Shown: positions 11 to 63,606 of the stretch, piece after piece
How positions within the stretch are numbered: the first letter of the stretch is position 1
Layout: each line of letters begins with the position of its first letter
Origin: Antedon mediterranea
Taxonomy: Eukaryota; Echinodermata; Crinoidea; Comatulida; Antedonidae
Assembly (NCBI RefSeq): GCF_964355755.1
Contig: NC_092673.1
Coordinates: 32,621,648-32,685,647 of the forward strand
Direction of reading: 5' to 3'
DNA: 64,000 nt
Made by a program: the position numbers and the translations under genes
The notes under the pieces: model-generated
The model's database searches: none
What the model was told of the DNA's origin: nothing
What the model saw: the letters and a program-made list of their open reading frames with translations, nothing else

Positions 11-1623
11 AGGGGGGTTCCGGGTTTAAAATGAATAGTAAAAAATGTAAAATATATTTGTTTGTCTCTTGAACGGTAAAAGTTTCAATTTATATAAGCG
101 CCCAGTGAAGCAGAACGAAGGCTGTGAACTCAGGCCAGATTACAAGTGCAGCTACGGCAAAATCACACTGTGGTTACAAAATAGGAAATTCGTGAAATGG
201 TCCATCTTCCGACGACTCGTTATCATAAACCATATCAATTACTTTTGTAAAATTATACTTATCTGATGTAATTTTAGTCGGTCTTCCCATTTATAAAGTC
301 AATTTTTTATGAAAATTTATCAAAACAGTGAAAAATTTGATATGTTTGCACTTTACGTTTGCCGATTTTCGCACCGACTTAGGGAAAAATCAAAATCAAT
401 GAAGCGTAACGTATACTGTACATTCCTGCTGAGGATCGAGCGAGACGACGATACACGTGCTCTGTCTCTGCTGCCCATGCCTGGCATCGTCACGTGATAA
501 GCAGATACAACAATACCAAACTGGTCGGGTCGAGTATACCCCGTCTATAATCACAACATGAACGATGTACAGTATTTGATTGAAGGTCGACTTGACCTAC
601 CGGAATGGTATAGATAATATAGCTCGAATGAGAGAGTTGGAATATTTGTGTAGTGCAGCCTATAGTAAAAGGCCTGGTAGTATCAATTCGCATAGGGTCT
701 TCTACTACACTAGCTAGCTCAATTTTTAACTGGGCCGGATCGGCTAGGTCTCCTTCCTACTACCTGGTCTACTTGCTTGATGCATGAGTATCCGCTTTTT
801 TGGAGAGTAAACTAAGCCTATTTTATTTTAGGCCTACTTAGACGATCCATGGAGGTATATATACCTCCATGGACGATCGGGACACCATACGTGTGGACGG
901 CGATCGGACCTTGTTTTGCTTCAATATTTACAGCCGATTTTGTAGAACGTTTTAGGTTTAGATTGTTTAGGAGTTTGGTTGATAGGATGGGTTTTGTTAT
1001 TCATGGGCCAATCGTCTAGTAGTAGGCTAGCTAGGCCCATGGGCCCCATTGTTTTAACGTAGCCATCGTGGCATGGAATCCCTAGTCAGAATGGCTCTCG
1101 CCCATATTATTATTAGGCTAGGCCTAGAGTAGTATTGTACGTGAAGCCGATAATACGATCTGTACTATAGAGTTATAAAAATAGTATAATTTATGACTCC
1201 GTATCTGTACTAAATTTTGTATTTCATTAAATGTCAAATAAATATAATTATGCTACTACTGTTATTATTACACTTTAGGCCTAGCTTAGAAAATCTACAA
1301 AAAATGTATTTCACAATGATCGGGTGGTCGTCGTTTGACAGGGGAGAGAGATGTAAATTAGTTGACAAACACAACGTACATGACGTCGTGAGTTTGGAAT
1401 CCACTGGTGACGTGATTTTGTGAATATCTCATGAATATTAATGAGCTTCCCTAAGCTGCTGAAAAACAGACTTTCCATGAATTTACCCTAAAATGTATAT
1501 GAAATTTAATTTTTTTAATTTCTCGTTATTACTTCTTCATTCTGACATGTCTATATTGTTATAATATTTTTTATTTAATAAATAAACGATATTTAAAAGC
1601 AATTTTAAACCCAGAATCCCCCT
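11..1623 (+). mobile_element. TTAA-flanked non-autonomous DNA transposon, copy A
   Basis: The two ends are inverted repeats: the left end reads AGGGGGGTTCCGGGTTTAAA and the right end is its near reverse complement. Both are directly bordered by TTAA (7-10 and 1624-1627). The whole element is repeated in inverted orientation at 48386-50020. No ORF longer than ~70 codons and no recognisable transposase are visible, so it is non-autonomous. TTAA target duplication is typical of piggyBac-type elements; that assignment is inference because the TIR start (AGGG) is not a textbook piggyBac end. Confidence 0.8.
841..878. repeat. 24-bp perfect palindrome flanked by a 7-bp direct repeat
   Basis: A perfect palindrome, CATGGAGGTATA followed by its reverse complement (848-871), sits between two copies of GACGATC (841-847 and 872-878). 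The sister transposon copy at 48386-50020 lacks the palindrome at the equivalent point, although the flank there is also rearranged. A related palindrome with longer spacing lies at 17717-17754. Confidence 0.7.
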
Positions 1624-1627
1624 TTAA

Positions 1628-3630
1628 GTTGTTTACATTACGTCAACATATTTGTTTCGTCATCGGCCTAACCTTAGTCATCAATTTGTTGACAAATCTC
1701 TGCACTAATAATGTTCTACTATGCTGGACTCAAGATTCGGTGTTATTTAGTCATGTTGCTGTTGGTTTCGTAATCTTTTTATTTCTTTCGTCATGTTTCG
1801 TCATTGTGTTAAAGTTCGTCCTCACATTAATTCGTCGTTTTTGTTTGGTCATAAATAAAAAATGAAACGTTTTTCATCGTAAACCCTCTCTGGCTTAAAT
1901 CGTAGCTACTAAAGTGTCTCAAGTTGTGATTTCATAATTATTATCAAAATGAAATTAGATTTGATATGACAACAACCCGACAACAGTCACCTATTTTTTT
2001 TTTCAAATGAAGCTGAACTCGGGAATTCGAAGTCATGTTGTTTCGTAAATTATTTTAGTTCGTCATAATTTTTAATTTTATCGCAAATGTACTGGATTAA
2101 AAAAAAAATAGAATAAATGTCACGAGACCGTTGAAGAATTAGGATGAATGGTGGGCGCTATAGTTCCGTTTCGCACCTGTCGTTTATTTCGACTCAACAT
2201 TGGTTAAGTAACTTTATCGTGAGTACCACACCTTAGAATTAGGCCTCAAAAATACTTTTACGAAGGAGATCACACAAAAAGTAAAAAACAAATCCTTTAA
2301 ATTGATGAATTTACAGACGTGTTTCTCGCACATCGGTTCGTGAATTTCGCATACTCCATGTTCAATGTTGTTGTTTCTATGGAGCGCCAAAAGAGCAATC
2401 ATAATAGAGGGCTAAAAACTCAGTAAATTTCGTATATTTAATGCATTTATTGGTAAAAATTACGTTCAATTTTATCATATTTTGTCAATGTTAATGCAAC
2501 AAAAATATTAATGTTGATACTGTACATGGTTTTTGCAGGATTTTTTAGGAATGAAAATCGACAAATTCATCATCATATTACATGTAGGGCCTACTGTAGG
2601 GGTATATCTGATCTAAATAATATTCCTCTTAGTCTTAGTATTACTCTTAGGCCTAGGGTTGGTTGCAAAACAAATTATTAGCAGTAAAATTTTACAGCAT
2701 TTTTATTGACAAAATATATTAAAATTAAACGTTTATTTCAATAATAAATCGTTAAAATTTCCGGAAGAAATTAAGTACTACATGTCGGTATAGTTCAATC
2801 AAGACATACTTATAATATCACTTCATTACATTCTTGTCTTTTTATTGTTGTCATTGATTAACTTCCAAAACCAAACAACTCTATTGTCTTACTTCCTTAC
2901 CATCGTTAACCATTGTCTTTTTCAAATTAAATAACATCTCCATTGTTGTTTTACTTCCTTACCATTGTTTACCATTGTATTAATTATAATAGGATTAACT
3001 AATGTCATCCCCTCAAGCGCCCTCTACGGGGGCTGTACCTGCATGTATTACTACTACAGTAATAATTGTTTGTTCTCTAAATGTCAATATTACTTGAAAG
3101 TGAAAGTTAAAAACCACCATAAGCCAATATACAGCGTAATTTTAAATGATCTTTTTAAATAAAATTAAGCAATTTAGCAATGCATTCATATCAATGATTT
3201 AGATCAGACTGTGTGTAAAGCACATCAGCAATAGAAAAGTCATTGTTTTGCAGCCTGTCACTGTCATGAACACAATGGTTGTCTTCCATTCTCAGTTGTC
3301 TCGAACTTCGTAGAGTTAATGCTTCAATTCAACGCTGTAATTAACAGAGCCTGTTGAAAATAAAGTTTAAAATGTTAAATAATAATTATACTCATTTTCA
3401 TTGTCATGCATACAACATTAATTTATAATGTTATGTGCTGATCATATTCCCGTTCATTTCTATGCCATTTTTGTTTGTTTTGTGACATTTTATTAAGGTT
3501 ATTAAAGTTTTTAAGCAATAGAGTAGTCACTGTTTACGTTGCTATTACTATCGTTCCATGTCACGCCGCATATCAATTACCGTTATATATAGAGGGTGTC
3601 AGAACATCAATATTATCTGTTTTTGACATA
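1628..3630. other. Intergenic, no gene seen
   Basis: AT-rich DNA with only short open frames (under 80 codons) that lack family resemblance. No RNA gene or transposon end was recognised here. Confidence 0.5.
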
Positions 3631-3690
3631 TTCAATTCAATTCAATTCAATTTCTTTATTTCTGCAAATGCCATCAATGGCTAATATCCG
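3631..3690 (-). mobile_element. Retroposon 3' tail with (TTGAA)n
   Basis: On the minus strand a short unique stretch ending in AATAAAG is followed by four to five TTGAA repeats. This layout (3' UTR end plus pentameric tail) is typical of LINE or SINE 3' ends. A similar arrangement with an (AAATG)n tail lies at 42720-42875. Only the tail is present, so the family cannot be named. Confidence 0.4.
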
Positions 3691-4078
3691 CTTAAACATA
3701 CTACATCATACAAACATAATTATACATATTTACATTTAAAATTTAAACACATAGTCATTACTACTGTAGTGGTTGTTTTTTTTTTAATTAGGCCTATTGT
3801 AATTATTGTTATTGTGATTATTGTTATTGTTATTATAATAATTAATAAAAGAGTAATAAATTATAGGTTACATCTTAAGGGCAGTTTTAATTTCAAGCAC
3901 AGAAGAGGAAGACACGTTAAGATAAAAATATTGAGCGAGTGAGAGGGAATGAGGTAGAGTAGAGTGAAGAAAACGAGTAGTATGTCCTTTAAAGGGAAGA
4001 TGAGAAGAGAAGAGTGTCCGGATAAGCTCCTGATTGGTATTGATATTAAAATAATTAAAATAAATCATTACCTTAGTA

Positions 4079-7000
4079 TTATAGGTTGTACAAATCAATC
4101 ATATCCTTCTTTGCTGCTTCCCGTGTGATTTCTCTCCATCCAGCTGGTATGTCAGCTTCCCTGCATCCATAAAATTCGGCTAACTCTTTGTTATACTTTG
4201 TCATAAACCATTTCCAGTACAATTGTGTTTTTGGATCCAGACTTGGGTTGATTTCCCATGAATTGTAACGTTCATTGACCTCACGATAGTTTTTAAATTT
4301 GTGCCATTTTTTATCAATATTTTGTTTTTTAAACATTAGTTTAGAGTCAGATTTAACTACCGTTGTACATAGGTCTGTGACTAGTTTATCTTTACGTTCT
4401 CGTTTACCAAAATCTGAGCTCCATTTCTGACCACCCACTCCCTGAGGCCGATGACACTCGGTTCGATGTATTTTACATCCTGCAATGTTATCACATGGGG
4501 CTTCACAAAACGGACATGCCTCTTCACAGCCAATAAGATCGTCCTCAAAAAAAATAACAACTTCTCCAATCTCACTCTTTAATTCGTTATCTAAATCAGA
4601 ATGGCATTTGGCTACTAATTCTTTTTCTTCTGCTTTTAGTTCGGACGAAATTTGACGAAGAAAATCTTCACTTTTAATTTCATTATTTCCATCAAGAAGA
4701 TCAGTTGCGAGTTCCGTCATTGCCGTTGTTTTAGACGTGGAATTTATTTCTTGCATCAAACCGTTTATTTTGCAAGTAGGTCCAGTTTTATCACAAGATT
4801 TGGTGATTGCTTCAATTTCTTCTTTGATTACACTATTTACGCGTTGATAGTAGATGCTTTGTAAGATCGTTAGGCCGTTTATTGTTAATTTCAATCCTCT
4901 TAAAATGTATTCTAGCAACCAACACCGCATAATATGTGAGGGAGATACCAAATAACCTAATAATGAATCACATGAGTCCTTTTCAGCAAGATCAATGAGC
5001 ATTTTCGCATGAAAGGTTTTCTTATTGATAAACGTACATTTATGATCAACTGAGGTTCTGAAATGATTTATAACATCTCTAACAAAATGTTGTTTAACTG
5101 CTTCGCCAATAGCATTTTTTAATTTTCTGGAAAGTTTGTTAGCTGCTGTCAATGATTGTTCCACCAGAACGCATTCGTTCTTGAACATTTCCCATATTTT
5201 TTTCTTTTGAGACATCATGTATACTCTTGGATCATGTTGTTCCTTATAAGCGGCCTTGAGTGATTGCAATTCTGGTATTAATTTCCAGACAATACACACG
5301 GTATGTTTAGCTATTGCTTTTAGTGTAAATTTACCGGTAGTAAATGTAGTAGTGATTGGCGGCTTTTCCAGTGTTTCATATACTTCACTGACGGTTTTAT
5401 GTAAGAAAGGTTCATTGCAATTATTTCCCCGACGTTTGCATTCATAAATGGCAATAGTTGCCTTTCTTTGAGCATCCTCAATTTTAATTTGGGCGAACCT
5501 CTTTAGGTATGACTCTGATTTAAGGATTTTAAGTTTTATTTCTTTTTTAATATCACCGGGTTCATACTTAACTGTGTGTATACTTACTCCATTATCCTTC
5601 AGTATATCTTGAACAACATGTTTAACTTGTTCACATCTCGCACAAAGTACACGGTGAAGTGTTTGCTCAATATCTATCTCGTTAGAAAGTTCTGGTGTGT
5701 CTTTGATCCATTTATCCCATTCTGTGTTAAACCGTTTTTCTAATTCTGGATCTTTTATACCGGTCGTTCTGAGTTGGTCTGCGAGGGTACGTGATTTTTT
5801 ATTAATTTCCAGCTGGTACTTCTCCATGTCTTTGTGGACTTTAGACCTCCATGAGACGGCTTGTTTGACAAGTTTATACTCGTCTTCAAGTATACTTTGC
5901 ATTTCGGTATGTAACCAACTCATTCTTTGTTGTATGTGCTGTTTCCAATGTATCACCCTTGGACTGCTCTTAATATACTCTTCCATTTTAGTGGAGAAGA
6001 TTTCATAGTTTTCCATTAATTTACCTTTCTGTTCTTCGAATTGTTTCTTTCCCTCTGTTTGAAATGTTTCTGTTGGAATGTTTCTGCATATCCTGATAAG
6101 ATCATTGCAATTAGTCCTGCATGCTTGTCTAAAATCCCGTGAAACCTCAATATACTCGTTTTCTAAGGCAGTATAAGCTTGTATTTCCAAAGTATTTTTG
6201 AAGGAAAAGATAAAGCCTTCACAGAGAACAGCCTTCCACAGAGCACTGATTTTGTGTCTAAATTCATCAAGAGTGTTTCCACGTTTGTCCATAATATGTT
6301 TACAAATAATTCTTCTAAGATCAAAAACACCGCGGGCGTACTCAGGATTTGGAGGTGCCATTGGTGGGGCTCCTTCCCATAGGTTTGACATTAAAACTAC
6401 ATGTTCCCTATGCTCAAAACTGATAACATCTGTAAATGAAATATCGGGTTTTCCTTGTAAATCTGCAGCTATTTTTGTAGTCTCTTCGAGTAGATTTCTC
6501 AACTTTATTTTTTGCGTCGTGGTTTTCAGTGAAGCCTCTCTATCAGTTATATTCTGATGAACAAAAATACAGCTAGGTTTTAGATTTGCTATTTCTATCG
6601 TCATCAGAGCATACACGACGATCTGTAGAATATCTTGAATATCAGAATGGTTTTCACCCATGATGTTTATAACTGTGGCATCTGCCAAACCAATTATAAA
6701 CGTCGCCATTTCATTATCACGATTATTTAACGTAACATTCGATAACTCGGGAGCGCGTAAGCCCTCTGTGTCAACCACCAAGATGTAGTCACTTTTAGAT
6801 TTCTTTTTCAGTTCTTCATCAAGAGGGACTAACTGTGCAAACGCACCCTTGGTACACCTGCCAGCACCGACTGCAAACTTTAAACCAAATAAGAAGTTAA
6901 GCATGGTTGATTTCCCACTTGCTTGCACACCAAGTACTGACAAAACAAACATCTTCTTATCTCCAATCTTTGCTTTAAGACAGGTAAAAACAGCATTCAG

Positions 7001-8817
7001 CCAAGCTATAGGAACATACGTTGCGTCACCATCCATAATTTCAAGTGGCTGTCCATCGATTAACATTTCTGCAGCTATTTCCGGTAATTTCTCGATATCT
7101 CCTTTGTTCTCGATTTTCTCAATTGTTGACACTTCTGATGCCATCTCATATATTTGAGCACATTCTCTGATGACATGTTCTAAGCCAATACTTTCGTTAA
7201 AAAGTTTACTTTGAAAGTTTTTAACAAAGGATCTGTCATGTCCACGTTCGTTTTGATAAGCATTGTTGTATTCTTCTCGTATGTTTTGTAACCAGTCACC
7301 AGAGTACCTTTCTAACAGAGCACTTGTCCAGTTATAAAAGTATAACCTTTCGATAGAATCTGAAAAAGCAGACGCTATAAATTGTTTAACCATAACCATT
7401 TTAGATTTATTTTTCCATTGCTCCAACTGTGTCACTCGTAAACTGTTTAAATCTGATGAAAGCGTTTCGAGATCTTCCTCCCCTTGTATATCTTCATTTT
7501 GTTTTACCTGTAATAGTTCTCTACTTTTGGTAGCAATGTTTAATGATAGAAACTGCAATGGAAAATGCATAAGTTTTTCTTTATTTTCATGCAAGTTTTT
7601 CAGTAATTTTTTTGACTTCAACTTACAATCAGCGATGTTACCATTAGTTTTGTAATCGATTCGAATATTGGTCGAAATTGCGATATCTTCCAAATCCTCC
7701 AGATTTTTAGAACGGGTTGTTGGATTAGACAAACACTGTTTCAGTGCGTCTTCAAGCGATATGGATACATCTTTGGTTTCATCCCTGACAATTAGATGAA
7801 CCATTTTATTTGCACCGATAAAAGCTGAATTTATAGATGTAAGGAATGGTTTCCATTCATGATTTGGTTTTTTATCAAACACAAGAACAAGATGGCTTGG
7901 TTGGTCATTCCAAGATGTAATCAACTTCATCTCTTCCACGTCCGACATGTCACTTTGGCAGAAAAGAATACTTATTGATGATGTCTTCATTATGAACTCC
8001 TTTTGTACTGGGTGATTGTAAACATTACCACGTAGGTTCATCATCCCAAAAGCAGTTGAAAAGCTATCTCCATCATTTCCCATTGGAAGATACCACATTA
8101 TCTCTAGTACTCCATTGGCCATTACTTTTTTAACATTTCCACCCTTACTTTTATAATTTACAAAATGATTATGTTTCGAGTTAATGGCTTGATTGAGCAG
8201 CTCTGATTTTGATAGCGTAGGTCTTCCTACACGCAGAGCAGATACTATTGGTAATGGATACATTGCCAGTGATCGTTCACGAGATGGCTCTGAACAGGTC
8301 TTGCATAGCTTTCGTAGTGTACTCATTGCCCAAGAAAGCATTTCAATGTTGGGTGTTCTTGACGGGGCGTCTATACCTGGTAATATCAACGGAATGCCTA
8401 ACTGACACTGTGCCAACTTTTCTACCAATATTTGTCTGAGGAAGTCATCACTACATAAAAATAGTGACGTCAGTACGTCTAAGGGATGTACCTGTATTTC
8501 ATCATCTGTATCATCACCATTTGGCTCCAGGGAATCATCATCCAGAAAAAGAGACAGTGAGGTAGTACTCTTTACTGTGTGCGTTGGTCGATTAAGTTTG
8601 AACGACAATCCTTCGTAGTTGCATGCGATAATATTTTGTAGCATAAACCAAGGAAGTTGTCGCGGATGTTCGATATCTGAATGTTTAATAACATTTTCTG
8701 TAAGTTTCAGTGCTCTCTGTCTTGTAATTTTTTTTGGAAACAAGTCATGTAGTTCCAGTAATTTTAATAAACTACACTTTTCATAGTCAGGAAGAAGCGC
8801 CATTGTTTGATCATTAC
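4079..8817 (-). CDS. Very large GTPase (VLIG/GVIN1/URGCP-like), giant 3' exon, gene 1
   Basis: Large GTPase of the interferon-induced very large GTPase family, expected to act in the cytosol or nucleus; vertebrate members respond to interferon or affect proliferation, but the role here is unknown. The frame is open from 8899; numbering residues from there, the N-terminal family segment covers about 27-110, the region with the family-like LPIVSALRVGRP about 215-300, the P-loop GVQASGKS is 657-664, DTEGL 710-714 and HQNITD 781-786. A long helical, probably coiled-coil region follows. A Cys/His cluster (C1458, C1462, C1465, C1469, C1475, H1478, C1482, H1483) precedes the conserved tail with YWKWFMTKYN and ADIPAGW. 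The true exon start is best placed at 8817, after an ATTTCAG acceptor in phase 1; the 27 residues upstream are probably intron. Upstream exons were not found. No frameshift or internal stop. Single-exon coding of the main body matches vertebrate VLIGs. Confidence 0.9.
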
Positions 8818-8994
8818 CTGAAATGATAATTTGTAATAATGCCCTGAAGTATTTTAGTTTATTTAGTTTGGTAGTACAGTAGTTATATTCTTTATTCATC
8901 GGGAAGAGTGAGAGAATAAGATATGAATAAATATTGTATTGTGCACATTTTTATTAGCTTTAATTGAATTTATATTTATATAGTGTTAAATTGT

Positions 8995-33711: not shown

Positions 33712-36700
33712 TTAAATATCGTACCATTTTCTCATATCTCTCTTCGCGTCTTCCATTGTAATAGAATTCCATCCGTCTGGGATATCAGCCTTGTTAGCAT
33801 GGTAGTATTCAGCAAGTTCAGTATTATATGTTGCCATGAACCATTTCCAGAACGTTTCTGCCTCGCCTGGAAGTGGTTCAATTTTCCATGATGCGTAGTA
33901 GTCATTGACAGTCCTATAATCTCGAAATTTAATAAATTTGAGGTTGGTGTGTTCATTCAAAAAAGGATAATTACACAATACTGAAGTTGTGCACACATCA
34001 GTAACGAGCTTTCCAGAAAAAGTATGCTTGTATCCAGCAATTCCTTGTGGCATGTGACACTCTGTACGATGGTGATCATGTGGGCCATGAAGTTCGCATA
34101 GTGCATTACAAAATGGACACACATTCTGACAAGCTAGTAGGTCAGCTGTAAAGAAGTCACAGAAGGATGTGCTTATGTCACTGAAAAGTCTACTATCGTA
34201 GGCGTTTATTATGGTTTCTTGGACGTTGTCTAGTTCCAATATTAATTTATCACTAAGTTCTTTCACATCCAGTTCTGTCTCTTCATCAAAAAACATCATA
34301 TCTGTTTTGACGCATAACTCTTTATCAATATATTCAAGTAAGATTGACCACCATAATTTCATTGTCATACTGTCACAGTAAATCATACCGCTTGCATTTA
34401 CATTAATGATAGCCTGCTTTAATCTAGCTAATATTTCACGAACTTTACAATTGTATATTTCTCGATGTACAGAGCTACCAGAATTGTCTTTTTCCTGAAA
34501 ACACATTTTCTCTATTTGTTCAGAGGTAAACGTTTTGATGGACTGAATTGGATTAGATAAATACTGCACAAAGGATTTAAAATCACCTTTCTCTGCCATT
34601 TCAACCAGCATCCATGCATGGAGAGACATCTTACTAGAAAACCCTTTACCCGAAGTGTATCTTAGATTGTCGATTACTCCAAGTTTGCATTTCTCTGGAA
34701 GCGATGTTTTAATAGCACTCGCAAACTCCCGAGATATAGCCGATACAACTTTTACAAGTATGTTCAGATCTTTACATTCTTCTTTGAACATTTGCCACAA
34801 TTTTTCTTTCTGAGACTCCATGTACAATCTCGGGTCACTTTCCTGTTTATATTGTTCTTGCATTTTTTCCAAGCTTGGTATTAATGTAACCTTGAAATTA
34901 GACACAGCTAGTCGAATATTTGATTTTTTATGAATGCAAACTTTCTCATCCATGTTTATTTCTCCAAGTTCACTTGACAGTGAGCTGAAAAGTTGAAATC
35001 CCAGTTGTTTTGTATAACTTCTTCCATTCTGTGCATGATTTAAAATTTTTGTTTGAAGTTTTTCCAGAATATCTTGTTTAGTGGAATTGGCCTGATTCAC
35101 ATACGTTACGTTACTTCTGGATCCAGGCTTTGATAAAAATGTCAAATCCTTTTCAAGTACTTCAGTACATTTGGAACAGTCAGACAACAATACACTAGTA
35201 ACTGTAAATTTGTCGTTTTCGGTATAGTAACCCTCAGTGATTCGTTCAAAAGATTTGTGTATGTTGACGTAATCATCAACACGTGGAATTACAGAAACCC
35301 ATTCATTCCAGTTTTTAGCAAACTCGCGTTCAAGAACTTCTTCAGAAAATTGTCGCTTTCGATACACTTCGGTAAGTTTCTTAGCTTTTTGGTAAATCGT
35401 TTGTTCATGCATTTTAATGGTGGCATCAATTTCAGCTCTGCCAATTATTCTGTTTTTAATAGATGTATATACATCCCTCAGGTCTCTTTTAATTTCATTA
35501 CAAAGATCGTCGAGTTGAAGTTCCATTTTACATTTCCATTGGCATGCTTTTTTTTCTTTTTCAAAATAAGACGCCATGCTTGATTGGAAAGTCAGAATGT
35601 CTTTCTCTAATTTCATTAAGTAATCATCAAGGATTTGTTCCTCTTTAACCTTTTCAGCTGTTAGTTTTTTACATTCATTTTGAAGTCCGTAGCTGTATTC
35701 TAGTGCATTTCTTCTGAAAGTACGGGCATGCTTCACATATTCTACATTCAAAGCATTAAAAGCTTGAATCTCAAGAGAATTTTTGAAACTGAATACAAAA
35801 TCTTGACCTAATATTGCTTTCCAAAGATCAGACAGCAATATTGTGAACTCATCGATATGTTTAGGTTCTGAATTCTTCATAATTTCCAAGACTTGTTTCT
35901 TTACTTGAAGAATGCATTTGCTGTAACCGGGATTAGGGGGCGCCATCGGTGGATCTCCTTGCCAAAGGCCGGAAATGTACATTATATGTTTGTTTTCTTG
36001 AAAATGAATGACATCAGAAAACGATTTATATTTCTCACCGCAATTTTCAGCTTCAGCTGCGATTTGTGTGATGTTATCCAATATTTCTCGCATGCTTCGT
36101 TTTTGCACCGTATTCAAGTCAGATGCTGTAACATCGTTGACATTTTGGTGTACAAATAAGCAGCTGGGCTTGATATGATGAACATTTTCCATTTTCATAA
36201 AAGCGTGCACAGCAATTTGAAGTGTGTCTTGTATGTCCGTTGAATTTTCTCCCATAATGTTTATTATGGTAAGATCACCCATACCAATCACAAACGTGGC
36301 TAATTCATTGTCCCGATTATTAGTATGTTGAATTCCGGATTCAGAAGATCGCAAACCCTCAGTGTCTACCACTAGGATGTAATCACACTTTGTGTCTTCT
36401 CCTAAACCTGTATCTAAAGATACTAGCTGGGCAAAAATACCTTTCGTACATCTGCCGGCGCTAACGGAAAATTGTAAACCAAACATGGCATTCAACAAAG
36501 TTGATTTTCCACTACTTTGAATACCTAGTACAGATAACACAAACATCTTTTTATTGCCAATTTGGTATGCAAGAGATTTGAGCACGGCTCTAATCCAAGC
36601 GATAGGCACATGGACTGCATCACCGTCCATCAGCTCAATTGGATATCCATGTAGTAACATTTCAGCAGCAACTTCTGCTAAGTGGAAATTATCAAAGTCA

Positions 36701-38432
36701 AGTTTTGGTGATTTAAAATCTGGTAAAAATTCGTAATTTTGACCAATTTCTCTATTGAAATGTTCTAATCCCACTGATGCAGAAGACAGTTGTTGTTCGA
36801 GTTCATCAAGTTGATATTTCAAGGTTTCTAATTGCTCATTAGTCGTTTCTGGTGCTTTTTTTTGGTCACATAACTCATTCCACTTGCAGATGTACTCGTC
36901 ACGTATTGGTTGTAGCTTGTCGATGCTATATTGGTCAGTCATTATCTTCACAAAACCAAAGAAATATTTTCTTTTTATAAGTGTGTTTGAGAAGGAGGTT
37001 CTGAATATTTGATATGCACAAACGTTTAGTCTTTGTTTGTTAATTTCTAACTGTTGCTGACGTAGGCATGCCATCTCTTTTTGTAGTTTATCAACGTATT
37101 CTTGAATTTGCATGTTTCCCTTTCTTTCTAGACGATGTTGTTCTCTTTTTGTCTCTGCAATTTTTAGTGTTATCTTCTGCAAAGGTAGCTCGTTTGCTTT
37201 TCCTTTTAATTTAACAAACTCTAACAATTCCTTAGCACTCTGTTTTGCTTCTGAACAATCACTTTCCATTTCATCAACGTGATAATTCACTGTATGCGCT
37301 AATTCAATGCACTCTTCAATACTCCTATCAGATACAACATCCCGATGGTCTCCTTTAAAATTTCTTCCAAGCGATTTCCAAATATCTTTGCTTATTGTCA
37401 GCTCGTTCTTGCCTGTTGATATAATATATTGTACTTGTTTCTTTACATTCTTTATACTTGTTTCCATTGTATGAAGTGCCTTCCCTAAATCTTTCAAAGC
37501 ACGTTTATCTAAGATGAAAATCACGTGGCCATTTTGCATGTAAAATGATTCAAGTAACTTGGTGTCATACTCCTTAAAATCATCAGCTGCCACGAATACA
37601 ATAGACACCAGTGATATCTCAGATAGAAACTGTGCCTGCTTTTGGAAATCTGATGCATTCCCTCGCAAATTTATAAATGTGAGTGCATCTGCAAAAGCAT
37701 CCGTACGTTCCTGTATGGGAAGGTACCATGCCATTTCTAATAAGCCATCTGATAATTTTCGTACCAAATTTCCACCTTTGCACCCGTAGTGAAAAAAAAT
37801 ATCATGATTCTGCCCAATAATGACATAGTTAGCAACTTTAGATTTGGATATTTTAGGTTTACCTAGTCGCAAAGCAGAAACAATCGGTAACCTCTCTACC
37901 ACCATTGATCGTTCACACGACAAACCTGAAATCGTTTGCCATTTCTTTGTGATTGTGCTCATTCCCCACACAATCATTTCCCATTCTTTGTCCTCTACGT
38001 CTGTTACTGGAATTAGTAAAGGAATAGCTAATTGACATATCGACAATTTTTCGATCACAATTTGCCTTAAAAAGTTGTCACAACATAAGAAAGTAACTAC
38101 CAGTGCATCTATTGGACTAACTTTACTGTTTTCAGTACTGTGATTTATTGATTCTTCACTTTCTTCTAGTGCAGAAGAAAGTGAATAAGCATTTTCATGA
38201 GAAGATTGACTTTCTTCTAAATCAAAACACCTTCCTTCGTAGTTACACATAATAAGATTTTGCAGCATGTACCAAGGTATTTTGCTTGGATCATCATTGA
38301 GTTCATCTGGTAAATTTACATTTTTAGAAACTAAAAATAATACCTCACGTGTTAGTTTTCTGGGAAAATATTTCTGTAGTCCTAGATGTTTAACTATCTG
38401 CTTGTACATTCCAAATGTACTGTCCGTCTTAT
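33712..38432 (-). CDS. Very large GTPase (VLIG/GVIN1/URGCP-like), giant 3' exon, gene 2
   Basis: Paralogue of gene 1, collinear throughout. The frame is open from 38481, but a clear acceptor (TATTTTCTTTAG) puts the exon start at 38432 in phase 1, so the first codon is completed by the previous exon (G plus AT, Asp). Counting from 38481, the N-terminal segment LGLQKYFPRKLT is at about 33-44, the P-loop GIQSSGKS 653-660, DTEGL 706-710 and HQNVND 778-783. Coiled-coil-like helices follow. A Cys/His cluster starts at C1451 (CQNVCPFCNALC, then HDHHRTECH), and the tail has FWKWFMATYNTELAEYY and ADIPDGW. No internal stop. The mini-exons at 40131-46180 share its strand and splice phase and are its best candidate 5' exons. 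GTPase activity is inferred from the motifs; the biological role is not known. Confidence 0.92.
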
Positions 38433-39240
38433 CTAAAGAAAATATACAATACAAATGTAAATAAAGAAACAAAAGTTTCAAATTTGAGTATAATAATAGT
38501 CGTTATCTCGGGACTGTTCTATGGCCACCACCAGGTAGGCTTACTTCATGAACGCTTCTATGAATGGATGAATATTTGGGAGCAGGAACGATAGTAGACC
38601 AAACCCAGTACCGTTTTTTATTACGATCATGTGGGAAATTACCTAACGACATTATATCTCTAAGATAGTTTAACAGTTCTTTAATTCCACCATTAATTCT
38701 GATAATCTTTCAATCTCCATAATCTCCGTATTTATAACAAATTACCCGATGGAAATGAAAAAAAATTAATTTTTAACTTTTCAAGTAAGGGTCTGTTTCT
38801 GCTAAAAAAATTAAAATAATTTCCTAAGTACCACAAACCATAGAATTGACCGCGTTGCAACTGAAAATTTTATCCGACGTTAATCGGTTATCTGGTAATC
38901 GCTTATCTGGTAATCGCTTTTTAAAAAGCACGTCATCCATACCCACAACACAGTTATGGAAGGCCGATGAGAGTCGGTTTGTTTACATTCTATCGCTGCC
39001 TAAATCTCTCACATGTAGGATTAAAAATTAAAAATTTAACTCTTACGTAAAGCTATATTATTTATAAAATAAACATCTAGGCCTACTACCGTACCACATA
39101 CGACAGAAAAATGATGTTAATAAGGGCACGTCGGCAAGAAAAGTTCGTTTCGCCATTGGTTCTAATCTAGGACCTAGCTAGTTTCTACCGAAACAACAGG
39201 CCTAAAAAGGACATGCAAAATATCGTTAGCCTGGACTTGT
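38433..39240. other. Intron of gene 2, no other feature seen
   Basis: Between the giant exon's acceptor and the SINE. Contains a short internal repeat of GGTAATCGCTTATCT (about 38884-38915). No exon was recognised. Confidence 0.5.
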
Positions 39241-40130: not shown

Positions 40131-40199
40131 CTTGTATTACAACTTGTTCTGATGATCCCTGTTTCTTTTCAGTATCGGTTTTTGCTTGGTTTAATTCAT
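40131..40199 (-). CDS. Mini-exon A of gene 2 (69 bp)
   Basis: Acceptor ATTAAACAG and donor GTAAGATAGT bound 69 bases open in phase 1: DELNQAKTDTEKK, then QGSSEQVVIQ. Its last G joins the AT opening the giant exon at 38432 to make Asp, keeping the frame. It is the copy nearest the giant exon and lacks the central TCEKE block of its siblings. Confidence 0.8.
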
Positions 40200-40230
40200 C
40201 TGTTTAATAAAAAAAAAAGTAGATAATTAG

Positions 40231-40737
40231 GGAGGTTTCACAACCTTACGAATACGATAACGAAAACGGATACGTCATACATTTGTGAAACTTTTGAGCT
40301 GATCCCCATTTCATATTCGTAAAGCGTATTCGTGTTGACGAATATCACCAGTCATATTCGTAACTACAAAACGAGTATAGTTTTTGATCTATTTTGCACA
40401 TTTTGCATTTGAATCAGGAATGATTCATGATTATAATAAAATTATAGATTTATTGAAAGTAATTTACTAAAGTAATTTACTAAAATGCCAAGTCAATTTT
40501 GATAAATAGCAGTTTTTAAAGTCCTCACTCGCTTTGATGTTACGCTATGCCTAGGCAGCAAAGCACCAAGCAACACGTACCTGCGCTTCGCTAAAATTTA
40601 CCGCAGTCATATTTTGGACGCGCCTCAATATTTCGTTGCCATGCGAAACAGATTTTTTTATGGCTTACAAAAACGAATACGTGTGCGTGGCGTATCAGTT
40701 TTCGTTATCGTATTCGTAAGATTGCGAAACCGCTCTA
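40231..40737. mobile_element. MITE-like element with ~45-bp inverted ends
   Basis: The left end contains CCTTACGAATACGATAACGA, and the right end carries the near-exact reverse complement with AAACCGCTC. The inside has further CGAATA/TATTCG strings and no ORF. It sits in the intron between mini-exons A and B. Confidence 0.75.
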
Positions 40738-41064
40738 ATGTTAAATAATGGAATCAAAATATATGATGATTGTTAAATATAGAACATAGTTGTCAACATA
40801 ATTGTAACTGGAAGCGAGAGTACATTGTATTTAATGTCGGTATATTCCAAACCTCTTCTTCATTTTTTAGGTATTTTGGCCGGCATAATTGGTCGGTAAT
40901 ATTTTACTTTAACCCCAGTTAGATGTATTGTTATTAGATTTATTAATAATACTTGTTTAAAATTTGTATATACATTTGTATGCAATTTTATATAATATTT
41001 AATTAAATGGCACAAAATAATTATAAATTGCTTAGCAAACCGTTTGTTCACAAAAGTATCTCAC

Positions 41065-41157
41065 CTGTTTCTGTTACAACCTGTTCGGGTGATTCTTGTT
41101 CCTTTTCACATGGGATTTCCAACTCCTCAGTATCTGTTTTTGCTTGGTTTAATTCAT
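41065..41157 (-). CDS. Mini-exon B of gene 2 (93 bp)
   Basis: Acceptor ATTAAAAAG, donor GTGAGATACT. Open in phase 1 with both ends in the same phase: DELNQAKTDTEELEI, then PCEKEQESPEQVVTET. Full-length form of the repeat. Confidence 0.8.
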
Positions 41158-41358
41158 CTTTTTAATAAAACAAGAGATAACATTTTTAAATATCGATCAT
41201 CTAGTTATATTTATTGTTGTAAGATTATCATTAATTTCTAATTAGTTTTAAAATAACAGTTAATTGTATTTTATTAAAACAATCTCACCAACAGACCCTT
41301 CGTGTATCATATTTTACATACTAAAATCTGCAGTATACTAACTAACGCATTGACTCAC

Positions 41359-41442
41359 CTGTTTCTGTTACAGCCTTCTGGGGTGATTCTTGTTCCTTTT
41401 CACACGTGGTTGCCACCACTTCAGTATTTTCGTTGAATTCGT
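41359..41442 (-). CDS. Mini-exon C of gene 2 (84 bp)
   Basis: Acceptor TTAAACAG, donor GTGAGTCAA. Encodes DEFNENTEVVATT, then CEKEQESPQKAVTET, in the same 1-1 phase. It is three codons shorter than mini-exon B in the first half. Confidence 0.8.
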
Positions 41443-42009
41443 CTGTTTAATAAAATCATTATATACAATGTTTATTAGATAAATTGTTTAGACATTTAGC
41501 CAAACATGAGTAACCATAACTTGTTACAAAATCCACCTGAATATTTAAATTCTCACCTGTATAAAGGTATATTTAACAAGACCGTTGTTGTTCGGCGTAA
41601 CAACGAAACATGTATGCACAAATGTTTTTTTTTAATCAAACTGAAGTTTAATGTTGTTATGCTGTCGGAAGTTCGACAACATTATTCATCACCTTAAACA
41701 CTTCGGTGTCAATCAAGGACTTACGAAAGTCGCAAAAGCTCTCAAAACAAATCCGTAAAAGCAACAGCTGATAAACTACTTATAAAATTGTAAAACGTTC
41801 GGCTTATTTACAAAATGTATTAATATTATTATTGTTGTTAAAATACTTGGTTCGAATGTTCTTATCATTAATTTCTATGTAGTTTATGATAATATTCTAT
41901 TGAATGTATTTTAGCAATACAATTACATTGAATGGCACATAATTATTATACATTTCTCAGCAGACCGTTTGTGAATTTCATATCTCACAATCTAACTGCA
42001 GTAACTCAC

Positions 42010-42102
42010 CTGTTTCTGTTACAACCTGTTGGGGTGATTCTTGTTCCTTTTCACATGTTTTTTCCAACTCCTCAGTATCGGGTTTTGGTTTGTTTATTTC
42101 AT
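42010..42102 (-). CDS. Mini-exon D of gene 2 (93 bp)
   Basis: Acceptor TATAAACAG, donor GTGAGTTACTGC. Encodes DEINKPKPDTEELEKT, then CEKEQESPQQVVTET. Full-length copy, intact phase. Confidence 0.82.
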
Positions 42103-42364
42103 CTGTTTATACCAAGAGATAAAATGTTTAGATATTGCCTAACTGTGTAGCCGGCCAGCAAATCAATTAGATTTATTTTTACAAAATTTATAAAAAAAAA
42201 ATACTTGGTTCAAAATATGTCATATCAATTTCTATGTAGGTTTATTAAAATATTTAATTGTATCTTAGTAATACAATTACATTGAATGGCACTTAATAAT
42301 TATTATAAATTGTTTAGCAGACTGTTTGCGTGTCATATTTCACAAACTAATTGCAGTAACTCAC

Positions 42365-42451
42365 CTGTTTCTGTTACAACCTGTTGGGGTGATTCTTGTT
42401 CCTTTTCACATGTGAACTCACCATTATCTGGTTTAAGTTGGTTGAATTCAT
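42365..42451 (-). CDS. Mini-exon E of gene 2 (87 bp)
   Basis: Acceptor TTAAACAG, donor GTGAGTTACTGC. Encodes DEFNQLKPDNGEFT, then CEKEQESPQQVVTET. Intact phase. Confidence 0.82.
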
Positions 42452-42589
42452 CTGTTTAATAAAAACAATACAATTTTAACTCTTCACGGTGACGAGTTAT
42501 TAGGCTATCGCGCAACGCATGTAACACATGCTATGTATTAGGCTTAGTCTACAGTGGGCGTAAACGGTTTAGTTGACGGTTAGTTTTTA

Positions 42590-43300
42590 TTTTACACCGC
42601 TATAAAAAAAATTTTCATATGTCTGAAGCAGAATTGTTTGAGTAATAACATATTGAAAATTGATAACGTTTACGTGATATGCGTTCTATTAAATGTGACG
42701 AACTGTCCCAAATATGTTTGATTCCACTTTTATTTATTCTTTGATTTCTATTTGAACTTTATATACTGTTTTATGCCTGTTTTAAATGTTTTTATATTTG
42801 TAAGTATCATGTAATTCAGCCATTGGCTGCGATTTTGATATGCAATAAAATGAAATGAAATGAAATGAAAAGAAAGATAAAAATCCAATTTTAAAATTCA
42901 GATGGCCATATGATGACGTTATAACATTACGGTCTAAATTTTACATAAACTAATATCTACAACTCATTAGCTTTTATATTAAGTTAAACAATAGAGAGAG
43001 AGCTATAATCGATTCAAAATAGGCATATTTATTTTTACACAAATTTGCATGAAATTATCCATTTTCAGGCGCACGATTTTTAAAGTTTGACGTACACGTG
43101 TGTCATTATTTTACATTCACAATATATCATAAAAGTATAAAGAACAATCAAGTACAAAAATTATCTTTCTAAGCTAAGTACGAGCTAAGTGCGCAAAAGC
43201 TCGCGCGCAACGCGATTTTTTTTAATGTGAAATAAAAAATATCCTGAAACATTTTGAAAAAATCTCCAATCTTCAAACTGTTGCTGATGATACAAAAAGA
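42590..43300. repeat. Dispersed repeat related to the 22.8-24.3 kb insertion
   Basis: Segments with ATATGCGTTCTATTAAATGT, AAATTCAGATGGCCATATGA followed by TGACG, and GCGCGCAACGCGATTTTTTT match pieces at about 23110-23290, 23480-23570 and 23930-24000. A retroposon tail with (AAATG)n is embedded at 42720-42875. The block lies in the intron between mini-exons E and F, explaining that unusually long gap. Confidence 0.5.
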
Positions 43301-43808
43301 TGATTGGGATTAATGTATTTAATTTTATAAATAACTTCACTTTAGTGTATGTAGTCCTAATGTATTATATTAGATTTTTTTTTTTTATTAAATAATGTTT
43401 TTGATCACATTTACTGCCGTCATCTTGTTGTTCCTGTTGGAATCACTTTTCAGTCTGTAGTACGCCCTCTAGCCTTCGGCTTATTACACCTCTCTGGCAC
43501 AGGCGTCTATTAGTGCGTACTGCGTAGGGCGTATCTGATTGGTCGATTATCGTGTTGGTTCCTTCTCCATAAAAAATAACTTTTTGATCTTTTGCGATCT
43601 AGCCTTTGGCTTTAAAATATTTGGAATTTATATTCAATTGATTAAGAATTTCGCGAAAATCGCGCGTAGTTACGCTACGCGACCATATTTTCATTAAACC
43701 AAAGTCAATTTTTTGACAATAAAAATCAATTAAACATTTGCCAAACCCCCAAAATTATAATTGCTTAGCAGACTGTTTGCGTGTCGTATTTCAAAAAAAC
43801 TAAGTCAC

Positions 43809-43907
43809 CTGTTTCTGTTACAACCTGTTGAGGTGATTTTTGTTCATTTTCACATGTGGTTGCAACCACCTTCTCAGTATCTGGTTTTGCGTCAAGGGTT
43901 AATTCAT
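43809..43907 (-). CDS. Mini-exon F of gene 2 (99 bp)
   Basis: Acceptor TTAAACAG; the donor is GTGACTTAGT, weaker than its siblings. Encodes DELTLDAKPDTEKVVATT, then CENEQKSPQQVVTET. Longest copy, intact phase. Confidence 0.75.
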
Positions 43908-44146
43908 CTGTTTAATAAAAATGATATAAAAATGTTTAGATATTTATCAAAGTCCTCCCGTTAGATTTATTGTTATTATATAGATTTATTAAAACATATT
44001 TGGTTCGAAATGTCATATTAACTTCTGTGTAGTTCCATTAATTGTATTTTGATAATAAAATTACATTAAATGGCAAATAATAATTGTAAATGCTCAGCAG
44101 ACCGTTTGTGTATCATATCTCACATACTAATATTGCAGTAACTCAC

Positions 44147-44242
44147 CTATTTCTGTTACAACCTGTTGAGGTGATTCTTGTTCCTTTTCACATATGATTG
44201 CCAACTCACCATTATCTGGTTTTGTGTCAGGGTTTAATTCAT
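44147..44242 (-). CDS. Mini-exon G of gene 2 (96 bp)
   Basis: Acceptor TTAAACAG, donor GTGAGTTACTGC. Encodes DELNPDTKPDNGELAII, then CEKEQESPQQVVTEI. Intact phase. Confidence 0.82.
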
Positions 44243-44472
44243 CTGTTTAATAACAACAATAGATAAAATGTTTAGATATTGGCCAAACCTGTGTATCTAT
44301 AAGGTAGGTTCGATTAATTAAAAATGGTTGGTTCGAAATCTCAGTTCAATTTCTAATTAATTTAATGATAAAATTTAATTGCATTTTAGTTAAACAATCT
44401 CAGCAGACCGGTTCGTGTATCATATTTTACATACTAACTGCCCCAGTATACTAACTAACTGCAGTAACTCAC

Positions 44473-44541
44473 CTGTTTCTGTTACATCCTGTTTGGTTGA
44501 TTCTTGTTCCTCTTTACATGTGGTTTCCAACTCCTTAGTAT
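44473..44541 (-). CDS. Mini-exon H of gene 2 (69 bp, 5'-shortened)
   Basis: Starts later in the unit: the acceptor is AATACCAG, followed by DTKELETT, then CKEEQESTKQDVTET. Donor GTGAGTTACTGC. Still 1-1 phase despite the loss of the first ten codons. Confidence 0.75.
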
Positions 44542-44629
44542 CTGGTATTAAATATAATAAAAACAAGAGATACTTTAATTTTTAATAAATAAAAGAATTA
44601 CAAAAAATTAAATAATATATTTGCTAAAC

Positions 44630-44695
44630 CTGTGCAACCATGGGATCTGCTTGAATGTTTTTTGTCGTTATCTGATTTTACTTCCTTTAATTCAT
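44630..44695 (-). CDS. Mini-exon I of gene 2 (66 bp, 3'-replaced, doubtful)
   Basis: A normal acceptor (TTAAACAG) is followed by DELKEVKSDNDKKHSSRS and HGCT. The second half of the unit is missing and the exon would end at a non-standard donor, GTTTAGCAA, in sequence that is intron in sibling units. Phase would still be 1-1. It may be a decayed copy. Confidence 0.45.
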
Positions 44696-44932
44696 CTGTT
44701 TAATATATTAAACAAGAGATATATTTAAACATTGGCCAAAACTATGCATCCATGAGGTCCTCCAGTTAGATTTATTGTTATTAGGTTATTAGTTTTGAAT
44801 GTTCATATAATTAATTTCTATGTAGTTAAGCCTATATAATAATATCTTAATAAATTAAATGGCTCATATTAATAAATTGCTCTGCAGACCGTTCGTGCAT
44901 CATATTTTACTTACTAATTGCAGTAACTCACC

Positions 44933-45024
44933 TGTTGCTGCTACAATCTGTTGGGGTGATTCTTGTTCCTTTTCACATGTGATTGCGAACTCCTCAGTAT
45001 CTGGTTTGGCTTGGTTTGATTCAT
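44933..45024 (-). pseudogene. Mini-exon J of gene 2 (92 bp, frameshifted)
   Basis: Splice borders are as in the siblings (TTAAACAG and GTGAGTTACTGC) and the frame reads DESNQAKPDTEEFAIT, then CEKEQESPQQIV. The last codons have lost one base (ATTGTAGAGCAACAG), so inclusion would shift the frame. Either it is skipped or dead, or there is a single-base sequence error. Confidence 0.6.
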
Positions 45025-45536
45025 CTGTTTAATATAATATAAGAAGAGATAAAAATGTTTAATATATAGATATTAAATAGATATAAATATTTGGCAAACA
45101 TGTGTAGCCATAGGGTCTGCCAGAATATCTATTGCCATTACCTGCTGATGAACAAGTAATGTTCGAATTTTTCTTAGTAGTTATGTATCCCATTACGGTA
45201 AGTATTTTACCTTTCATCAGTACAGTAAATGTAATTTACATCTAATGTGGTGCTATATAAAACTCCATCATTATCATTTTAATTCTGAATTAGACGGACA
45301 AAATGCAAATATTAAAAAAAAAATAACCGTCTCATATACTATACTAGCTGTCTCAGTAATTTCGCGAATTGGTTTGATAACATTATAGTATAACCCGACC
45401 AAATTATTTCAATCGATTCAGTAAATTTATTTACTTTAATCGGTTGCAAAACATGTTTTGTTCTTGTTTGTTTGTCATTAATTGTTAAATTTCAATTATT
45501 TTCTTATAAATATAATAGTATTATTTATGTACAATT

Positions 45537-45600
45537 GAAAAGGGCAGATTTGAAATTGAAAAGGGCAGATATGAAATTGAAAAGGGCAGATATGCCTCTT
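45537..45600 (+). repeat. 21-bp tandem repeat, three copies
   Basis: AAATTGAAAAGGGCAGATATG-type units occur head to tail, running into the retrotransposon 3' fragment. Confidence 0.85.
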
Positions 45601-45735
45601 CCTGGACACCATCGGAATCACGACTCTGTCGTCTTTGTAACACCGGTGAGGTTGAAGATGAGCTTCACTTTCTATGAAATTGTAGTCATTATGACAACAT
45701 ACGTAAGAAACTATATAATAACAAGAAAGCCACTC
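45590..45735 (+). pseudogene. LINE C-terminal fragment
   Basis: One frame reads SRLCRLCNTGEVEDELHFL, then a stop, then NCSHYDNIRKKLYN. CxxC followed by EDExHF and C..Y..iR is the pattern often seen at the C-terminus of animal non-LTR reverse-transcriptase proteins. Only this tail remains, broken by a TGA where an aromatic residue is usual. A SINE leader fragment abuts it at 45740-45805. Confidence 0.5.
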
Positions 45736-46102
45736 TGAGAGTGCATACCTCCGCCTACTGTAAAATTCTCCTACATAAGATTTCTCCGGTGCGGGAATAT
45801 ATATATATCTGTGTGTCTAATGCTGTGTTTGATTTAGGCTAATTTCACTACAAGCATGTGTATGCGAATTTAGTGTACTGGTTATGTAACCAGCCTTTCA
45901 ACTAACAATAGTGTCAGTTGACTAACAATAGAACAGCAACGCCAAAAACAAGTCTGTTAACGTTTAGTATTTATTCGGATTGTGACGTCAGATATAACGT
46001 ACATGCGGTACGTTAATTAGTTAGGTGTGGCAGGGCTAGTTACATCATCATGTTTTGGATCGGTACAACTCCACTACAATTGACATAACTGCAGTAACTC
46101 AC

Positions 46103-46180
46103 CTGTTTCTGTTACAACCTGTTCGGATGATTCTTGCTCCTTTTTATATGTGGTTTCCATCTCTTCAGTATCCGGTTTTG
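46103..46180 (-). CDS. Mini-exon K of gene 2 (78 bp), most upstream copy seen
   Basis: Acceptor TATTAAG, donor GTGAGTTACTGC. Encodes KPDTEEMETT, then YKKEQESSEQVVTET, in 1-1 phase; the cysteine of the other copies is tyrosine here. The start of the unit is shortened. No further copy or start-codon exon was recognised upstream, so the gene's 5' end is unknown. Confidence 0.75.
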
Positions 46181-46279: not shown

Positions 46280-47556
46280 AAGGCCAATTTACATACAGGA
46301 GCGGTAACGGTAAGCGGTAAAGGTAAGCGGAAAATACAAAAATAGAATCTATGTTATTTCTTATGACCATTTACACAGAACGCGGAGAGGACGAGCGGTT
46401 GAGCGGAAATCCGCTCAGGATAGAAACAGATTCAATTTTGTAAAAATAACGCGCAGTAATTATGGATTCTGGCCAACCAACGACATGATTGATATGACGT
46501 CATCTATCAACAACTTTTTTGCTTGAGTCCGTCGAGTCAAAGACGACAATAAATACGAGTGCCGTAGTAGGCTTAAGGCCAATTTACACAGACGAGCGGT
46601 AACGGTAAGCGGTAATTGTAAGCGAAAAACCGCGTGGCTTTTTCCATTTACACAGCGCGCGGAGTTCACGAACAGAGTTGTGGAAAGTAGGTGCGTGTAG
46701 GCGGCCTCGAGGCTAATGCATGTTACAGTCACTGCTGGCCTGGATGTGACTGACTGTCAGTAGGCCTAGCACACACAGGCCTAAGTTTTAGAGGGAATTG
46801 TTGCCTAATAACGTACTAAAATGTATATTTTCTTTTCACTATCCTTATACGAACATTAGTCACGTCGTAGGTGTTTTTATTTCTGAATAAAAAGAAGAAG
46901 AAACTATAGGCTATAGGCCTACTAACGGCACTCGTATTTATTGTCGTCTTTCACTCGACGGACGCAAACAAAAATTGTTGATAGATGACGTCATTTCAAT
47001 CATGTCGCTGGTTGGCAAGAATCCATAATTACCGCGCGGTATTTTCACAAAATCGAATCTGTTTCGATCCTGAGCGGATTTCCGCTCAACCGCTCGTCCA
47101 CTCCGCGTTCTGTGTAAATGGTCTTAAGAAATAACATAGATTCTATTTTTGCGTTTTCCGCTCAACTTTACCGCTTACCGTTACCGCTCGTCTGTATAAA
47201 TTGGCCTTTAGCCTAGTTTTGGAACTTCTTATTATTCCGAAATACAAACAAACGACGACGACAAACTAGGACGTGACTGATTGTTTGTATAAGGATAGTG
47301 AAAAGAAAGTATACATTTAGGACGTTATTAGGCCCTCTAAAACCTAGGCCTGTGTGAGCTAGGCCTACTGCCAGTCAGTCACGTCCAGACCAGCAGTGAC
47401 TGTAACATGCATTAGCCTCGAGGCCTACAAGCACCTACTGTCCACCACGGGCCACTCGCGAATTCCGCACGCAGTGTAAATGGGACAAGCCACGCGGTTT
47501 TCCGCTGACAATTACCGCTTACCGTTACCGCTCGTCTATGTAAATTGGCCTTTAGG
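46280..47556. mobile_element. Two interleaved inverted-repeat (fold-back) elements
   Basis: Four terminal sequences of the type AAGGCCAATTTACA...ACGAGCGGTAACGGTAAGCG are present: two forward (46281 and 46575) and two reverse (ending 47213 and 47555). Arm P (46281-46574) pairs with 46915-47213; arm Q (46575-46914) pairs with 47214-47555. The order is therefore P, Q, P', Q', not the nested order of a simple insertion. No ORF beyond ~90 codons. Probably PIF/Harbinger-like or another MITE class; not determined. Confidence 0.75.
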
Positions 47557-63273: not shown

Positions 63274-63606
63274 TTAAATGTCGTACAATGTTTTCATATC
63301 ATCTATTGCTTCTTCCTTTGTAATATCCTTCCATCCGTCTGGAATATCAGCCTCCTTAGCATTGTAGTATTCAGCAAGTTCAGTATTGTATGTTGCCATG
63401 AACCATTTCCAGAACGTCTCCGACTCGCCAGCCAGTGGTTTCCTCGATGCGTAGTATTCATTGACAGTCCTATAATTTCTGTAATTAACGACTTCGTTGC
63501 TTGTATCTTTATTCTGAAAACTATAGTTAGACAACAATCCAGTTGTGCACAAGTTTGAGTTGAGCTTTCCAGAATTCACCCAGTGATATCCGGAAACTAT
63601 ATCCAT
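63274..63606 (-). pseudogene. C-terminal fragment of a third very large GTPase
   Basis: About 100 of its 110 residues align with the end of genes 1 and 2: GYHWVNSGKLNSNLCTTG, then NYRTVNEYYAS, FWKWFMATYNTELAEYYNAK and ADIPDGWKDITKEEA. Similarity starts just after where the Cys/His cluster and CHxPQG would be; that cluster and everything upstream to the window end are absent. It is closer to gene 2 (FWKWFMATYNTELAEYY is identical) than to gene 1. There is no good splice acceptor at the homology start, so a truncated copy is more likely than a last exon. Same strand as the other two. Confidence 0.7.

Follow-up and report, generated by a model that had tools for sequence, protein, structure and literature searches.

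The PEVK region of titin is described as a low-complexity segment built from many small exons, in which exons are gained and lost via repeats and splicing sets the length of the isoform (PMC6469411). The micro-exon genes (MEG) of Schistosoma have short exons (81 bp or less), mostly multiples of three, that are separated by long introns, and encode secreted, disordered products with alternative splicing (PMC10526429). Dscam carries tandem homologous exons in one gene (PMC1397879). What a giant VLIG/GVIN GTPase does was reported only lately, in a preprint (PMC11974893): human GVIN1 is reported to coat Burkholderia thailandensis, and a flexible linker is predicted between its N-terminal domain and its first GTPase domain. 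Here we describe a tandem array of mini-exons upstream of a giant VLIG/URGCP-type GTPase exon in the crinoid Antedon mediterranea. The array lies in a stretch of 64,000 nucleotides (the window; contig NC_092673.1, positions 32,621,648 to 32,685,647, assembly GCF_964355755.1).

The titin PEVK region is the closest analogue, followed by the micro-exon genes. The crinoid locus resembles PEVK in having tandem homologous exons of one phase and of disordered composition, and would work like it without being a member. It differs in that the protein is unrelated, an immune-type GTPase, with about ten units per array and with splicing that is predicted. In comparison with the Schistosoma genes, the units here are 69-99 bp long and precede a giant GTPase exon; seven of the ten units in the window exceed 81 bp and the units of one sister array measure exactly 81 bp. 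Dscam shares the tandem homologous exons but uses one exon at a time, whereas the crinoid units are symmetric linker units that could be concatenated. With VLIG, GVIN1 and URGCP the locus shares the Pfam domains in one giant exon and the clustering of genes; what sets it apart is that mini-exons stand in tandem before the giant exon and that sister genes have a DED-like exon there. Neither arrangement before a VLIG was found in the available parts of the open-licence VLIG literature among the matches listed.

Anatomy and coding signal of the mini-exon array

The array in the window (array 1) runs on the minus strand from 46180 to 40131 and consists of ten open mini-exons and one broken unit (Table 1). 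Each of the ten has an AG acceptor, an open frame and a GT donor, a length divisible by three and phase 1-1. Over all eleven units the acceptor reads TTAAACAG in seven and the donor GTGAG in eight. The units and the acceptor of the giant exon at 38432, all of phase 1, have a split Asp codon (G/AT) in common, and about 1.7 kb separates the last mini-exon from the giant exon. Joined, the ten units amount to 861 nt or 287 amino acids; EQESPQQVVTET is an example of a peptide of this type. An earlier note on this DNA had proposed eleven units, of which the eleventh turned out to be broken. Its description of ten symmetric phase 1-1 exons that match the phase of the giant exon was borne out, and the 278 residues it expected from them are replaced by 287. 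The ATG in mini-exon 1 could be the start codon of the protein, which is a guess; four of the nine remaining open units have TTG at this position.

Table 1. Coordinates of the mini-exons, the giant exon and the sister arrays
Feature	Location	Strand	Description
Giant VLIG/URGCP-type GTPase exon	33712..38432	-	4.7 kb, intact; phase-1 acceptor 38432, domain matches
Mini-exon 1	46103..46180	-	78 bp, AKPDTEEMETTYKKEQESSEQVVTET; in-frame ATG 46160-46158
Mini-exon 2	44932..45024	-	93 bp
Broken unit	44630..44695	-	unit-like start, then intron-like sequence, poor donor GTTTA; nhmmer E 0.026
Mini-exon 3	44473..44541	-	69 bp; acceptor aligns within other units
Mini-exon 4	44147..44242	-	96 bp
Mini-exon 5	43809..43907	-	99 bp; donor GTGAC
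Mini-exon 6	42365..42451	-	87 bp
Mini-exon 7	42010..42102	-	93 bp
Mini-exon 8	41359..41442	-	84 bp
Mini-exon 9	41065..41157	-	93 bp
Mini-exon 10	40131..40199	-	69 bp; donor GTAAG; profile score lowest of ten
Array 2	L001, 32756.6-32759.2 kb	coding strand of 32765k	eight open diverged units, one failing open-exon filter, one fused half unit
Array 3	L012, 32782.4-32784.8 kb	coding strand of 32787k	ten 81-bp symmetric units, ~258-bp spacing
Remnant unit	L014, upstream of 33008k	coding strand	array-1 DNA profile E 4e-10

The units carry a signature of frame conservation. The coding frame is open in 10/10 units of array 1 and each of the two remaining sense frames in 0/10; the antisense frames are open in 5/10, 0/10 and 8/10. 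All 41 internal gaps in pairwise alignments of the exons are multiples of three, compared with 19/91 in the upstream and 38/121 in the downstream flanks, these counts being overlapping and hence not independent. The exons also differ less among themselves (p-distance 0.170) than their flanks do (0.410 and 0.331). When neutral evolution was simulated, the ten units all stayed open in 0.3% of the runs, a value that is flattering because the units had been picked as open; with the broken unit included, at most one of eleven was broken in 1.6% of the runs. The matching figures for array 2 were 0.7% and 3.4%.

The exon downstream is of the VLIG/URGCP type, in agreement with the immune-type GTPase that the earlier note had assigned. 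A single frame without internal stops spans 33712-38502 on the minus strand (1,596 residues stop to stop). Its translation matches the URGCP-like GTPase domain PF25683 with 401.5 bits (cut-off 55) and the URGCP domain PF25496 with 244.8 bits (cut-off 27). By eye it contains GIQSSGKST and DTEG, which we take to be the GTP-binding motifs GxxxxGKS and DTEG.

Sister arrays and start codons in the VLIG cluster

A search of the genome (354 Mb, 18 contigs) gave 32 pieces with VLIG matches. The VLIG cluster to which the window belongs lies on contig 4 at 32.62-33.04 Mb; there is a second cluster at 6.56-6.62 Mb, and copies occur on contigs 1 and 7. Two further arrays were found 71-99 kb past the window within the same cluster. 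Genome searches with units of each array, both as protein and as DNA, returned three places among the matches listed, all in the VLIG cluster, and missed at least one remnant, that at L014.

An earlier profile had been trained on all three arrays and was thus unable to prove homology; profiles from single arrays (or from arrays 1 and 2) were therefore run against 45 fetched loci and the window. With array 1 alone as the source of the DNA profile, matches in array 2 comprised its eight open units (E 5e-25 to 2e-11) as well as the fused half unit, and those in array 3 all ten of its units (E 1e-12 to 9e-10) plus two decayed pieces next to these. Profiles from array 2 or array 3 alone recovered the other arrays including the ten window units, with weak matches to mini-exon 10 (E 1.5e-4 and 0.2, respectively). 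All unit matches lie on the coding strand of the VLIG downstream, and the remaining loci of the 45 gave no unit match at E ≤ 1. Units of array 3 together with their intron are 95-100% identical to the query unit. By these DNA comparisons the three arrays are homologous. At L001, positions 1413-4473, a truncated VLIG exon stands in frame with the second half of a mini-exon that has a phase-1 donor, and might encode a chimeric protein.

Among the 32 pieces, 18 VLIG copies had the 5' end of their giant exon read. An ATG near the exon start is present in 12/18, including the second VLIG of the window and the copies on contigs 1 and 7. The other six, the window gene, 32765k, 32787k, 32832k, 32845k and 33008k, begin with a phase-1 acceptor and have no ATG there. 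The difference is local: the ATG-bearing 32817k reads (TTT)ACAG/TTCTTTAGATAAGATGG and the window gene, at the acceptor at 38432, TTCTTTAG/ATAAGACGG. The loss of the ATG looks derived, because distant copies carry it. Of the six ATG-less copies four have units upstream (the window gene, 32765k, 32787k and, as a remnant, 33008k), compared with 0/12 ATG-bearing copies, in a profile search that covered about 9-25 kb per copy. Fisher's test on units and ATG loss, computed by hand on genes that are related to one another, gave approximately 0.005. Units are thus associated with ATG-less VLIG copies. Undamaged giant exons remain in two of the six, the window gene (1,596 codons) and 32765k (1,578 codons), and open arrays precede both. 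The stops listed for 32765k and for 33036k lie upstream of the giant exon, which is open to the end in both.

A second type of exon lies 2.5 to 10 kb upstream of 32787k, 32832k and 33008k, three of the ATG-less copies. It scored 25.7 bits against Pfam PF01335, below the curated cut-off of 35.9, and is therefore called DED-like only. Two of the three exons match PF01335 at E ≤ 1, and no solved DED was among the four profile matches (E ≤ 10). Of 458 candidate matches to this exon 150 were scored; at 33008k more than 10 kb was fetched since a match pointed there. L012 shows the pattern in full: a DED-like exon comes first, then the ten units of array 3, and then a phase-1 giant exon whose first residues include no Met; by eye, a GTATGT donor allows the frame of the DED-like exon to end in phase 1. 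DED-like exons form a large family, with at least 150 matches on many contigs. A stretch of the window at 49980-49738 was considered as such an exon and rejected, its 4.9-bit protein match not being credible.

The window holds other VLIG-related sequences. The second VLIG (4079-8950, minus strand) is a distant relative with 36% identity to the giant-exon gene and has its own ATG; a profile search found no mini-exons in about 25 kb upstream of it. At 63277-63597 (minus strand) there is a C-terminal piece of another VLIG copy, 62% identical to residues 1488-1596 of P0001. An open reading frame at 59250-58567 (minus strand), conserved upstream of several VLIG copies, was considered as a shared first exon; this was rejected on its translation, which reads as a reverse-transcriptase fragment apparently from a non-long-terminal-repeat retrotransposon. 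Similar open reading frames lie upstream of VLIG in L002, L014 and L015. Just upstream of array 1, the sequence at 46300-47500 shows by eye two halves like a long inverted repeat and is possibly a mobile element.

Predicted product and competing readings

The joined arrays would give acidic chains, with net charges of -57 over 287, -30 over 249 and -40 over 270 residues for arrays 1, 2 and 3. Hydropathy is low, Trp is absent, and the charge-hydropathy boundary places all three with disordered proteins. They contain 7, 8 and 9 S-P or T-P sites, and one Ser is invariant over 21 aligned units (ten, eight and three from arrays 1, 2 and 3). The earlier note had proposed a disordered extension made of acidic units with usually one cysteine and subject to copy-number change. 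Disordered composition, acidity, low hydropathy and the variation in unit number, which differs between the three arrays, all agree with this. The cysteine does not: it occurs eight times in ten units of array 1, four times in eight of array 2 and not in the ten of array 3, and as a mark of function it was dropped, not being kept between arrays. TRAF-binding motifs were considered and suggested no consistent fit to the unit. Other GTPase loci had been named as places to look for the unit, and arrays 2 and 3 and the L014 remnant were found there, before ATG-less VLIG exons. The earlier note, confined to the window, did not cover the two sister arrays, the DED-like exons that precede three sister genes or the difference in start codons.

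In our view the mini-exons are probably genuine coding exons that belong to the VLIG gene at 33712-38432 and are spliced to its giant exon. On our best reading they would encode a disordered, acidic N-terminal linker of variable length, similar to titin PEVK. Splicing to the giant exon, translation, function and isoform diversity are predicted here from sequence features.

Several observations weigh against this reading. At the giant exon of the window gene the position where sister genes start has no ATG and the first Met is the eighth whole codon (FGMYKQ); Met occupies the eighth whole codon in both undamaged ATG-less genes and may allow a start without the array. Damage is found in 4/6 ATG-less versus 4/12 ATG-bearing copies. 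The former are 32845k (in-frame stop), 32787k (a single frame change, located at ten consecutive A's and perhaps due to an error of assembly), 33008k (split) and 32832k (stops and fragmentation); the latter are 32693k (stop), 32876k (stops and frame change), the contig-7 copy (stop) and 32753k (truncated). A single origin of the ATG-less genes was rejected: in a tree from about 1.3 kb of the giant exon, 32787k, 33008k and 32845k group with support 0.91, and the remaining three fall elsewhere, the window gene beside two ATG-bearing copies with support 0.99. The 5' ends have therefore been exchanged or changed more than once. The median ratio of nonsynonymous to synonymous substitution rates (dN/dS) is 0.82 for unit pairs of array 1 (43/45 pairs) and 0.77 for array 2 (27/28 pairs), so constraint at the residue level is weak. 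A DNA search of 38 loci and the window at E ≤ 1 returned only the three known DED-like exons and thus none upstream in the window. When arrays 1 and 2 were combined in a protein profile, the ten array-3 exons reached at most 4.1 bits, so that the homology of array 3 rests on exon and intron DNA, phase and position. Finally, array 2 directly follows the truncated VLIG exon that is joined in frame to a half unit, probably a product of recombination.

The mini-exons might instead be a relic of an older form of the gene, with the protein starting at the FGMYKQ Met and the array left unspliced. The Met shared by the two undamaged copies, the damage in most ATG-less copies, the dN/dS near 0.8, the DED-like exon not found upstream in the window, the broken unit of array 1 and the array-2 unit that fails the open-exon filter all fit such a history. 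We nevertheless regard it as unlikely: of the three sense frames only that of phase 1 is open in the ten units, their gaps are all multiples of three, and in the simulation so many open units seldom survived neutral decay.

It is very improbable that the mini-exons belong to a separate gene, in a transcript that ends before the giant exon or skips it. The 1.7 kb that follow mini-exon 10 would leave room for this, but each of the three arrays is followed by an ATG-less VLIG exon that agrees with it in orientation and phase, and the genome matches listed, in which the L014 remnant was missed, showed no place with units outside the three arrays. Least probable of all is mutually exclusive use as in Dscam, with one unit per transcript as a variant of a single 30-residue segment: homologous alternatives of the same phase would suit it, but symmetric exons can be joined in any number without loss of frame and so have no need of exclusion, and ten almost identical array-3 units give hardly any choice.

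Proposed mechanism and meaning

If the mini-exons are spliced to the giant exon, the protein would probably start at the ATG of mini-exon 1, or from the DED-like exon in the three sister genes. After the start would come a series of near-repeats, each about 30 residues long, that form the acidic disordered linker, and then the URGCP/GTPase body. Because every open unit is phase 1-1, the gain, loss or skipping of a unit causes no frameshift. The near-identity within array 3 indicates that a unit spreads with its intron (about 258 bp there) by tandem duplication, and since this array is nearly uniform it is probably recent. The ATG-less copies would have lost the ATG of the giant exon and gained a dependence on upstream coding exons. 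How far an N-terminal module extends from the GTPase body may depend on linker length, and modification or docking may take place at the repeated S-P sites. Alternative splicing could occur, and individuals could differ in copy number.

More tentatively, and with considerable doubt, we propose that a repeat of about 260 bp has been turned into a growing and shrinking coding linker of coat-forming GTPases, sometimes tipped with a DED-like signalling domain, with tether length and the number of S-P sites varying by paralog, individual and splice form. If true, the family would represent a diversifying, length-tunable effector of cell-autonomous immunity. Provided that the array is spliced in, three homologous arrays before one type of enzyme would make the cluster a natural experiment on linker length, and an effector gene would have given up its own start codon and gained an upstream extension with the frame kept.

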